A stretch of DNA of 32,844 nucleotides, from contig QBMB01000051.1 in assembly GCA_003241965.1 (NCBI GenBank), positions 1-32,844 on the forward strand, read 5' to 3'. Origin of the DNA: Burkholderiales bacterium. GTDB taxonomy: Bacteria; Pseudomonadota; Gammaproteobacteria; Burkholderiales; Burkholderiaceae_C. This document shows positions 24,288 through 26,716 of the stretch, piece after piece. The position numbers and the translations under genes are program-made. Position 1 is the stretch's first letter. The number at the start of each line of letters is the position of its first letter. The notes under the pieces were generated by a model that was not told where the DNA came from, did not search any database, and saw nothing but the letters and a program-made list of their open reading frames with translations.

Positions 24288-25238
24288 TCAATCTGCCTTG
24301 ATGTTGCGGGCCTCGATGAGTTTTTTCCAGCGCGCGAACTCGGTGGCCTGGAAGGTGGTGAACTGCTCGGGCGTGTTGGCCACGATCTCGAAGCCGAGGT
24401 CCAGCAGCTTGGGCTTGACCGTCGGGTCGTTGAGGATCTCGACGATGGCCTGGTGCAGCTTCGCTTTCACGTCGGCGGGGATGCCTTTGGGCGCGGCCAC
24501 GGCCTGCCAGGAGTTCACGTTGGCGTCCTTGATGCCGAGCTCGTCCAGCGTGGGCACGGTGGGCAGCAACGGCGAGCGTTTGGCGCTGGTGATCGAGAGA
24601 GCGCGCAGCTTGCCCGCAATGATCTGCGGCATGGCGGTGTTGATGTTCATGAACGACGACTCCACCTGGTTGCCCAGCAGGTCGGTCATGACGGGACCAC
24701 CGCCTTTGTAAGGCACGTGCACGCCGCTGGTGCCGGTCTGTTGCCAGTAGAGCTCGGCGGTGAGGTGGTCGCTGCTGCCGTTGCCCGAGGAGGCAAAGGT
24801 CATCTTGCCTGGGTTGGCCTTCTGGTAGGCCAGCACGTCGGCCATGGTTTTGTGCGGCGAGACGGCGGGCACGACGAGCACGTTGGGCGCCTGCACGGCG
24901 ACGGTGATGTAGTCGAAGTCCTTGGTGGCGTCGTAGGTGACCTTGGTGAGGTGCGGCGCGATCACGAACGGGCCAAGCGAGGAGACAAACAGGGTGTGGC
25001 CATCGGGCGCGGCGCGAACCACTTGCGCGGCGCCGATGGTGCCGGTGGCACCGGCCTTGTTCTCCACGATGAAGGTGCCGCCCAGCTTTTCCTGCAGCTT
25101 GCCTTGCAGGGTGCGCGCGATGAGGTCGGTGGAGCCGCCGGGCGGGAAGGGCACGACGATGGTGACGTTTTTGTCAGGCCAGGCCATGGCGGTGGCAACA
25201 GTCATGGATGCGCCGAGCGCGCAGAGCAGTTTCTTCAT
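24288..25238 (-). CDS. TctC/Bug-type solute-binding receptor
   Basis: A 316-aa periplasmic binding protein of the tripartite tricarboxylate transporter receptor (Bug) family. It has a signal peptide (residues 1-19, ending AMA) and the typical start of the mature protein, [30 protein letters not shown]-like [12 protein letters not shown] and [17 protein letters not shown] are also diagnostic. Context points to glucarate or galactarate as ligand. Membrane partners TctA and TctB are not encoded nearby, which is common for the many orphan Bug proteins in Burkholderiales. The start at 25238 has AAGGAG 7 bases upstream. It is the first gene of the repressed four-gene operon. Confidence 0.92.
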
Positions 25239-25282
25239 TGCTTGTCTCCTTGTGGGTGGAATCGAATGGCTTTTTGCCGTTG

Positions 25283-25300
25283 ATGGGTACCGGTGCCCAT
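25283..25300. promoter_or_regulatory. LacI-family operator O1
   Basis: An 18-bp near-palindrome, ATGGGTACCGGTGCCCAT, with one mismatched pair. It lies 45 bases before the TctC start, downstream of the promoter, with its centre 31 bp (about three helix turns) from the promoter-overlapping operator. Two repressor dimers would thus lie on the same face of the DNA. Confidence 0.75.
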
Positions 25301-25314
25301 GTTTCTCGGATCGC

Positions 25315-25343
25315 ATGGTACCGCTACCAAATCTTCGCGTCAA
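25315..25343 (-). promoter_or_regulatory. Promoter of the tctC-gudD-garL-garR operon with operator O2
   Basis: On the minus strand a -35 box TTGACG (25343-25338) is followed by a 17-base spacer and a -10 box TACCAT (25320-25315). The operator TGGTAGCGGTACCA (25329-25316, one mismatched pair) covers the spacer end and most of the -10, so the LacI-family protein encoded upstream would block RNA polymerase directly. This placement, the matching O1 and the matching site by the repressor gene make the assignment strong. Confidence 0.78.
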
Positions 25344-25388
25344 CGGTCGTTTGTCGGGTGGGGATTGATGGGATGCACCTCGCGGGCT

Positions 25389-25484
25389 CGTGAGCGAGCG
25401 GCGCTCTGCTCCGCGGCTGTCCCCCGGGCCGGCTTCGCCGTCCCTCCTCCTTGATGCCGCTGCGCAGAACGCCACTCGCTCACG
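25389..25484. repeat. REP-like hairpin element, copy 1
   Basis: An outer stem is formed by 25389-25409 and 25464-25484 (19 of 21 pairs). Inside lies a core (25409-25465) of 20 bases starting CTCCGCGGCTG, a short inner hairpin (CGGC-TTC-GCCG), and 24 bases ending CTTGATGCCGCTGCGC. An inverted second copy lies at 25529-25628. The element sits just beyond the 3' end of the LacI-family gene and upstream of the tctC promoter. It could act as a terminator or insulator, and is likely repeated elsewhere in the genome. Confidence 0.8.
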
Positions 25485-25528
25485 CGCTGAAGTGACGTGG
25501 GCGCGCCCTCGTGACGAGTGCCAACGAG

Positions 25529-25628
25529 GTCATTGGCGGCCATGGGGCACGGCGCAGCGGCATCAAGGAGGAGGGGCCGCAGGCCCCGGGGGACAGCCGC
25601 GGAGCCGTGCCCCGTGGTCGCCGATGAC
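25529..25628. repeat. REP-like hairpin element, inverted copy 2
   Basis: The outer stem is 25529-25553 with 25604-25628 (22 of 25 pairs), different in sequence from the stem of copy 1. The core (25552-25604) is the reverse complement of copy 1, with all 44 flanking core bases identical. Its inner hairpin differs (GGGGCC-GCA-GGCCCC on the plus strand). It ends 21 bases from the stop of the LacI-family gene. Conserved core with changed but still paired stems suggests selection on structure. Confidence 0.8.
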
Positions 25629-25649
25629 CGGACCCGCCGGAGAAAGAAC

Positions 25650-26678
25650 TCAGGAAGTCTCCCGCTCCACGATGGAGAACCCCACATCCACCACCCGCGG
25701 CGCCACCTCGCGCCCCTCGGCCCGGTCGATCAGATGGCGCGCCGCCATGCGGCCTATGTCCACACCGTTGATGTGCACCGTGCTCAGCGCAGGCGCCATG
25801 TCGGCGGCAAAGGGCACGTCACCGAAACCCAGCACCGCCAGTTGATCGGGCACCGCGATGCCGCGCACCCGCGCCTCGGTCAGCACACCCAAGGCCAGCA
25901 GGTCCGAGCTGCAGAACACGGCGTCCACATCGGGCGCCTGCGCCAGCAACTGACCCAGGGCATTGCGCCCGCTCTGCAAGGACCGCGACGCACCCACATT
26001 GACCACGGTCACAGGCGCCAGGCCGGCGCGCACCACCGCGTCTGAGAACGCACTGGCGCGCCGGTCGGCGCGCTCGTCCTCGGCACGGATCAGCGCCAGC
26101 TTGCGCCGACCCTTGGCAATCAGAAAACGCGCCACCTCGCGCCCGATGTCGGCGTGCGAGAAACCCACCAGCATGTCGATCGGTGTGGGGGTGAGGTCCC
26201 AGGTTTCCACCACCGGAATGCCCGAAGCCATCAGGCGCGTTCGGCCCAGGCCCGGATGCAGGATGCCGGTGAGAAAAATGCCGTCGGGTCGGCGGCCGAT
26301 GATCGCTTCCAGCAAGGATTCCTCGCGCGCCGCCGAGTAACCCGACTGCCCCAGCATGAGCTGGTAACCCGCGTCGAACAGCGTGTCGTTGAGTGCTTCG
26401 ATGGTTGGCATGAAGACCGACATCACCGTGCTCGGCACCACCGCTGCAATCAGCCGACTGCGCGACGAGGCCAGACCACCGGCCATGCGGTTGGGCACGT
26501 AGCCGGTTTTCTGCACGGCATCCAGCACCTTCTGGCGCACGTCCGCCGAGACCTGCTCGGGCGTGTTGAGCACACGCGAGGCGGTGATGGGTGCCACGCC
26601 GGCGAGCTTGGCCACGTCGCGCAAGGTGATGGCGCCGCTGCCGCGCCGCGCGCGCCGGGAGTTGTCGGTTTCTTTCAT
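25650..26678 (-). CDS. LacI-family repressor of glucarate/galactarate genes
   Basis: A 342-aa DNA-binding repressor. The N-terminal helix-turn-helix (about residues 18-40) reads ITLRDVAKLAGVAPITASRV, and the hinge-side motif GYVPNRMAGGLASSRS follows. The rest is a periplasmic-binding-protein-like sensor domain (for example DAVFCSSDLLALGVL and LAVLGFGDVPFA), which would bind a sugar-acid inducer. It resembles GntR of the LacI family. The start at 26678 (MKETDNSRR) fits the family; its ribosome site is weak. It lies between its probable targets: garD is divergent across one perfect operator, and the tctC operon lies downstream behind two more. The same upstream operator suggests autoregulation. 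The inducer is unknown. Confidence 0.92.
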   Translation of the reverse strand: MKETDNSRRARRGSGAITLRDVAKLAGVAPITASRVLNTPEQVSADVRQKVLDAVQKTGYVPNRMAGGLASSRSRLIAAVVPSTVMSVFMPTIEALNDTLFDAGYQLMLGQSGYSAAREESLLEAIIGRRPDGIFLTGILHPGLGRTRLMASGIPVVETWDLTPTPIDMLVGFSHADIGREVARFLIAKGRRKLALIRAEDERADRRASAFSDAVVRAGLAPVTVVNVGASRSLQSGRNALGQLLAQAPDVDAVFCSSDLLALGVLTEARVRGIAVPDQLAVLGFGDVPFAADMAPALSTVHINGVDIGRMAARHLIDRAEGREVAPRVVDVGFSIVERETS

Positions 26679-26702: not shown

Positions 26703-26716
26703 TGGTACCGGTACCA
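26703..26716. promoter_or_regulatory. LacI-family operator O3 between repressor gene and garD
   Basis: A perfect 14-bp palindrome TGGTACCGGTACCA, the ideal form of the two imperfect sites before tctC. It lies 25 bases before the repressor start and 70 before the garD start. TTGAAA (26697-26702), directly beside it, could serve as a -35 box for garD, but no good -10 was found. An 11-base dyad TCAAG-G-CTTGA (26690-26700) adjoins it. Confidence 0.82.

Follow-up and report, generated by a model that had tools for sequence, protein, structure and literature searches.

The window analysed here, a 32,844-nucleotide stretch of Burkholderiales DNA (contig QBMB01000051.1), carries two inverted hairpin elements between two tandem genes, and they raise the question of whether such a pair is selfish DNA or an RNA signal for 3′ ends. 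The upstream gene encodes a LacI-family repressor (25650–26675, minus strand; Pfam LacI and Peripla_BP_3) and the downstream gene a TctC-type solute receptor (24288–25238, minus strand; Pfam PF03401, E 5.5e-79). Unit 1 spans 25385–25488 with its GGAG strand on the minus strand and consists of a 24-bp outer stem, a conserved core and an apical hairpin; its core, CTCCGCGGCTGTCCCCC-hairpin-CTCCTCCTTGATGCCGCTGCG, was located by sequence and core scan at 25409–25464 (plus strand). Unit 2, the inverted copy, spans 25529–25628 with its GGAG strand on the plus strand, has its core at 25553–25604 (minus strand, by core pattern) and ends about 20 bases from the lacI stop codon. Sequence and match positions place a 40-base spacer (25489–25528) between the two. 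A covariance model (R1) derived from units in other genomes matched unit 1 with 72.8 bits (positions 1–96 of 96) and unit 2 with 79.8 bits.

The initial annotation had described two inverted copies with identical core flanks, inner hairpins that differ and still fold, and paired outer stems, and each of these features was found again. The core flanks, 25409–25428 (20 bases) and 25442–25465 (24 bases), agree with their counterparts in the inverted copy at 44 of 44 positions, and the inner hairpins of the two copies are different and each able to fold. The outer stems do pair, with the 19/21 and 22/25 pairs given earlier counted in a register slightly off the 24-bp register of the family; in the latter, copy 1 has 20 Watson-Crick pairs plus two G-U pairs on the minus strand, and copy 2 has 21 plus three G-U pairs on the plus strand, where no pair is broken once G-U is allowed. 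Folded as RNA, copy 1 reached -70.5 kcal/mol (z -6.84) on its GGAG (minus) strand and -62.9 kcal/mol (z -6.89) on the opposite one, nearly equal z-scores that have no power to tell the strands apart, and copy 2 reached -78.3 kcal/mol (z -8.63) on its GGAG (plus) strand and -65.6 kcal/mol (z -6.00) on the other; for each of these four folds, 0 of 200 shuffles were as stable. Outside the hairpins, TGGTACCGGTACCA palindromes were seen before tctC (25316–25329, one mismatch) and in the divergent gap between lacI and a dehydratase gene (26703–26716, no mismatch), and by eye also in orthologous gaps; they are likely operators of the LacI-family gene.

The core was then searched for in the genome and its relatives, as the initial annotation had proposed. 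Many copies were returned, well above what chance would give, and the window pair belongs to a repeat family that is dispersed in these genomes. In its own genome (177 contigs), copy 1 was placed by BLAST at no fewer than 29 sites at E < 1e-5, the two window copies included, with the 40 best of 69 candidates scored; a core scan of 21 fetched loci gave 29 cores, some of them cut, and the core pattern gave 24 matches vs. 0 for a reversed control pattern. Allowing at most one mismatch, the pattern is present in 44 of 60 same-genus genomes (own included), at 0 to 24 matches per genome, while the reversed control is present in none and 16 genomes have no core match. Copy number is uneven among related species, with at least 29 BLAST places here vs. 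four R1 matches in G001. In a collection of named genomes at least 118 stretches matched, and the 80 titles listed among these included 41 Variovorax and 11 Hydrogenophaga, other hosts such as Ramlibacter, Rhodoferax, Rubrivivax, Pseudorhodoferax and Xylophilus, and single records labelled Sulfurisoma and Stagnimonas. R1 matches were obtained in at least 12 of the 250 order-level genomes sampled (including G566, whose match is weak, on both strands and doubtful), at least 4 of 274 from the class and at least 12 of 398 from the phylum; as the best 10–16 candidates per genome were scored, these counts are lower bounds. All matched genomes fall at least within the class of the window. In a small class-level genome (G651, loci L397 and L399), a variant core, ATAAAGCGCAGGAG-hairpin-CGACGAGCCA, was seen with a long, AT-richer stem in the same layout, perhaps a second branch of the family.

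To describe the unit, 253 distinct units were gathered by core sequence alone, so that the outer arms were not chosen for pairing. From outside to inside, a unit starts with 24 freely varying paired bases and a 3×3 internal loop, continues with an inner stem some 5 bp long and an asymmetric loop, purine-rich and conserved, in which AUNAAGGAGGAG faces CGGGGGACA, and closes with the apical hairpin; the purine loop and the 3×3 loop are the conserved unpaired parts. The outer stem has a fixed length: counted outward from the core, pairing is 61–98% at positions 1–24 and 26% at position 25. Over 20 positions, own arms pair at 84.9% vs. 39.5% for swapped arms (44,774 swaps between units with dissimilar left arms), with 25% as the lowest value in a single unit, and the means for 99 non-redundant units are 82% vs. 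41%. A stem fixed in length and free in sequence gives a concrete hint of how a factor that recognises the hairpin might measure it.

The stems covary. When 23 units of the same length were aligned, standard pairs made up 95.9% of the cells and 27 of 34 pairs showed two-sided change, while 0 of 500 shuffles reached any of the five measures used and slid registers gave 34–41%. In 42 distinct, more distant rows, an alignment fitted to the model that holds a few opposite-strand and doubtful matches, 92.4% of cells are paired and 32 of 34 pairs changed on both sides. The inner stem is paired at 69.7% in this larger alignment, two of its pairs being mostly non-standard; an inner stem of GCTCA/CTTCG occurs in 39 of the 253 units, in which tandem G-A pairs could take the place of two Watson-Crick pairs, and this variant would explain the low figure. 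The outcomes on which the initial annotation would have withdrawn its proposal, namely no other copies or no stem covariation, did not occur.

The pairing carries a strong one-strand signal. Read on the CTCC strand, the 6072 outer-stem cells comprise 5103 Watson-Crick pairs, 586 C-A/A-C cells, which become G-U wobbles on the GGAG strand, 91 G-T/T-G cells, which are G-U on the CTCC strand itself, and 292 other mismatches. The 99 non-redundant units gave 221 vs. 56 such cells, with 76 units vs. 9 favouring G-U on the GGAG strand and 14 ties, and the 25 units of the own genome gave 58 vs. 8 in the same direction; swapped arms gave only 13.6% vs. 8.7%. Complete 24/24 pairing was reached by 78 of the 253 units with G-U on the GGAG strand, by 11 with G-U on the CTCC strand and by 9 without any G-U, and for 118 of 120 sampled units it was the GGAG strand that gave the more stable RNA fold. 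As the mismatches are one-sided, selection sees one strand, either as RNA or as single-stranded DNA. Single-stranded DNA, too, tolerates G-T better than A-C, and the strand bias therefore does not prove RNA.

Change in place at orthologous sites was also evaluated. The lacI–tctC region had a long match in 17 same-genus genomes and any match in 33 of 60. Two units occupy the gap in the own genome, G029, G037 and G011 (cut by a contig edge in the last); G028 has a single unit, G001, G032 and G024 have remnants that lack the core, and G058 has an insertion. Reading of the gaps showed no element in 8 of the 17 species. With G-U on the GGAG strand counted as paired, 10–12 of the 24 pairs of unit 2 were changed on both sides in five of the six comparisons among the four two-unit genomes and none in the sixth (own vs. 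G037), and no pair was broken in any of the six; unit 2 of G029 and that of G011 are each 24/24 Watson-Crick. Unit 1, compared in four genomes, showed 1–7 two-sided changes and 2–3 broken pairs per comparison; the figures for unit A of another site, on contig C113, were 0–8 and 0–2, respectively. Own-arm pairing, covariation, strand bias and this compensation in place together support selection on a folded single strand, RNA or single-stranded DNA, as first proposed for the window. The other proposal made there, a mobile core that inserts into existing palindromes, was rejected, given the same 24-bp stem across 253 units and the stems that change in place.

On a 17-row tree of the lacI–tctC site, three presence changes are needed, and a single gain plus two losses may account for them. 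Presence was also polymorphic at three more own-genome sites in ten relatives, and some element-free sites hold other hairpin-like repeats. The element is dispensable, being absent from this gap in 8 of 17 species and without a core match in 16 of 60 same-genus genomes. The element-free sites of G024, G001 and G032 (L307, L326 and L328) were seen to carry different repeats, GC-rich, hairpin-like and of CCCCCTTGAGGGGG / GCCGCAGGCGGC type, as if hairpin families replaced each other after genes. Around position 1317 of L309, in G032, the two units of the site look fused into one longer palindrome by deletion.

The layout of the units is equally regular. Adjacent units stand in −/+ order, their GGAG strands facing outward, in 60 of 62 cases in one set and 36 of 36 in another (96 of 98, some loci being in both sets), with a spacer of mostly 38–47 bases across the family; one same-strand neighbour pair was found in G596. 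The REPIN-like (REPIN/BIME) arrangement noticed in the initial annotation is supported. Neighbouring genes were called with a home-made codon-model gene finder, with seeded training for the second set. Confident neighbours on both sides were obtained for 51 of 98 elements in the first set (5 in-gene, 28 with a distant neighbour and 14 at an edge were dropped) and for 33 of 61 in the second (2, 25 and 1 dropped, respectively), at least two loci being shared between the sets. These 84 elements lie in 28 convergent (14 + 14), 53 tandem (35 + 18) and 3 divergent (2 + 1) gaps, vs. 19 (14 + 5), 105 (78 + 27) and 36 (25 + 11) among the 160 gaps that are 80 bases or longer and hold no element; the divergent shortage in the first set has a Fisher p of 0.005. 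The shortage depends on the stricter gene calls, as with looser ones it was slight (7 of 69 and 9 of 86 elements, several calls being doubtful, vs. 84 of 519 gaps). The elements prefer convergent and tandem gaps near stop codons, the median distance to a stop being 50 bases in the first set and 41 in the second. Convergent and same-direction gaps are likewise favoured by known REPs in the part of the literature consulted (PMC3733652), and selection against harmful insertions elsewhere would yield the same placement.

Where a single unit stands between tandem genes it tends to be in sense orientation, at a sense to antisense ratio of 12:8 by lenient calls and of 9:3 and 4:2 with confident genes, at least one locus being in both of the latter counts. 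Such numbers are only suggestive as a sign of RNA, and sense orientation as proof of RNA was not convincing. In a convergent gap read as proC–ubiA from its open reading frames, three species (L074, L075 and L076) have a unit pair that encloses a different insert in each: in one a protein that has no Pfam match, in one what by eye is an attC-like cassette, and in one an insertion sequence with a DDE transposase. A cargo carried between units was rejected, as the inserts differ at the three orthologous gaps, with two proteins without Pfam match and the DDE transposase in the third; they look like unrelated secondary insertions.

RAYT transposases had been suggested as the mobilising enzymes. Y1 transposases were found in 51 of 60 same-genus genomes (one in 49 and two in 2, 53 matches). 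Of these 53 matches, 30 came with flanks of up to 1.5 kb and none of the 30 has a unit by R1 at E 1, a regular expression giving two weak half-core matches at one of them, and four further Y1 loci from distant genomes had no unit, which makes 0 of 34. Conversely, G079 and G537, with at least 16 matched units each, gave no Y1 match at E 0.001. Mobilisation by RAYT is not supported as far as tested, and another enzyme, or one now extinct, is possible. In the six bases 5′ of the 24-bp stem, GTAG was found in 1, GTGG in 3 and CGTC in 7 of 253 units. The sole Y1 match of the own genome (L031, C107:319–1020) has inverted GGGTCAGATTCCAATT-like ends by eye and no unit nearby; Variovorax copies have TGTTCAGGGCG...CGCCCTGAACA-like ends, likewise by eye. 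No clean insertion with target duplication was seen by eye at four sites. The family is itself a site of insertion: at three contig ends of the own genome (C43:33–54, C83:3024–3045 and C101:42200–42221) the core is broken at CTCCTCCT and followed by the same foreign end, and unit 2 of G058 (L248) is interrupted at the same core bases by a stretch that carries an IS110-family transposase gene (Pfam) and whose terminal part resembles, by eye, that foreign end. An IS110-type element appears to target this hairpin core, and REPs are known targets of the IS110 family according to the part of PMC1525189 seen.

The reading that we prefer, at a probability of roughly 45%, is that of a bidirectional 3′-end RNA hairpin element that has spread as a repeat. 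The active form of the unit would be RNA. A transcript running past a gene, from either side, would meet one unit in GGAG form; this hairpin, bound through its purine loop by a putative factor, would define or protect the 3′ end of the transcript and limit read-through, and the inverted pair would let the device work both ways. Copies would have spread in the past and would now mostly stay, co-evolve in place or be lost. The pairing of own arms, the stem that stops at pair 24, the covariation, the strand specificity, the compensation in place and the gene context speak for this reading; transcription, the binding factor and the 3′-end effect are what we infer here. Against it count the start codons, which lie about as near to the elements as stop codons do (medians 52 bases in the first set and 61 in the second), the unconvincing orientation of lone units, the divergent shortage that is slight with looser gene calls, the lack of a T-tract and the dispensability of the element. 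For the terminator or insulator role put forward in the initial annotation, the place fits, being convergent or tandem and near stops, but no T-tract follows the hairpins. A search for rho-independent terminators found no hairpin plus T-tract inside the element, and one weak terminator-like site at the lacI 3′ end (25664–25651), with 0.4 expected by chance. Somewhat more tentatively, the hairpins could form a new structured RNA class, common to several bacterial families within one class, serving as a two-way 3′-end device. A protein or ribonuclease would then read only the purine-rich core on an RNA stem fixed at 24 bp, which would leave the stem sequence free, and the inverted pair would be deployed so that transcripts of both neighbours are handled.

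The main rival to the 3′-end element, plausible at rather less than even odds, is a non-autonomous mobile element of REPIN or MITE type, whose ends are the hairpins of one DNA strand; a candidate transposase or recombinase would recognise them, and pairing would be kept because only folded copies move. A dispersed family with uneven copy number (at least 29 places here vs. four matches in G001) and a fixed inverted-pair layout (60/62 and 36/36 adjacencies) are what it predicts, and the strand bias would also suit a strand-specific single-stranded DNA substrate. It fits less easily with the 34 Y1/RAYT loci without a unit, the two unit-bearing genomes without Y1 match, the failure to see by eye a clean insertion with target duplication at four sites and stems that still covary in copies staying at one orthologous site. 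Mutation rather than selection could also keep the arms paired, if template switching in a quasi-palindrome copied one arm onto the other, and some changed stems are indeed perfectly Watson-Crick (unit 2 of G029 and of G011). This process acts on double-stranded DNA, though, and predicts about equal numbers of C-A and G-T cells, vs. the 586 and 91 observed; likewise, 9 of 253 units are 24/24 Watson-Crick, vs. 78 that pair throughout once G-U is allowed on the GGAG strand. Template switching is accordingly quite unlikely, and a strand-biased mutation process within the hairpin keeps a small residual probability as the source of the asymmetry. REPs bind gyrase or IHF, and inverted palindromes enriched between convergent genes might similarly be bound in pairs by a DNA protein that acts on duplex DNA or on cruciforms, with no role for RNA; a cruciform holds the hairpins of both strands and, like duplex binding, gives no reason for one-sided mismatches. 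This is the least probable of the readings considered.

With respect to known systems, Rfam 15 gave no match at the gathering score in nine sources, the window included, the sub-threshold match at window 25100–25900 being MIR839 (31.3 of 200 bits). The family was not found in titles and abstracts, and six literal core strings had no match in literature text, in a search that had most subscription papers outside its scope. It is apparently undescribed so far, and set apart by description only from BRE, the Beta-proteobacterial repeat element. BRE, as presented in the consulted part of Hot et al. (2011; PMC3110155), is a GC-rich, mostly intergenic element of about 90 bp in Burkholderiales, present in as many as 29 copies per genome and originally encountered in a Bordetella region that yields small RNAs. 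Host range and size are thus alike in the two descriptions, whereas BRE occurs as tandem copies of variable number and sometimes within coding sequences (same source).

REP, BIME and REPIN elements are closer in kind. As far as the parts seen of PMC2817692, PMC3733652 and PMC3116915 describe them, they share with the present family intergenic palindromes in inverted pairs, mostly in convergent or same-direction gaps, compensatory stem changes and a role as targets of IS110-type insertion sequences; the outer stem of 24 bp differs from the 6–13 bp of the GTAG families in these same sources. Many intergenic palindromic copies per genome occur in both, at numbers that are low for REP. The hairpin family further differs from REP in its long conserved internal loops, in lacking a GTAG/GTGG or CGTC tag at the base of its stem and in that no adjacent RAYT was found, so that two defining features of RAYT-linked REPs, the tag and the RAYT, are missing. 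Its core is hit by an IS110-type element as REP sites are in the portions consulted of PMC1525189 and PMC11208160, with this core, and no known REP, as the target. Next to these systems, it adds a paired hairpin repeat family with a strong strand-specific covariation signal in genera that have cultured members, e.g., Variovorax and Hydrogenophaga, and it makes testable the old question of whether paired intergenic palindromes are selfish DNA or 3′-end RNA signals.
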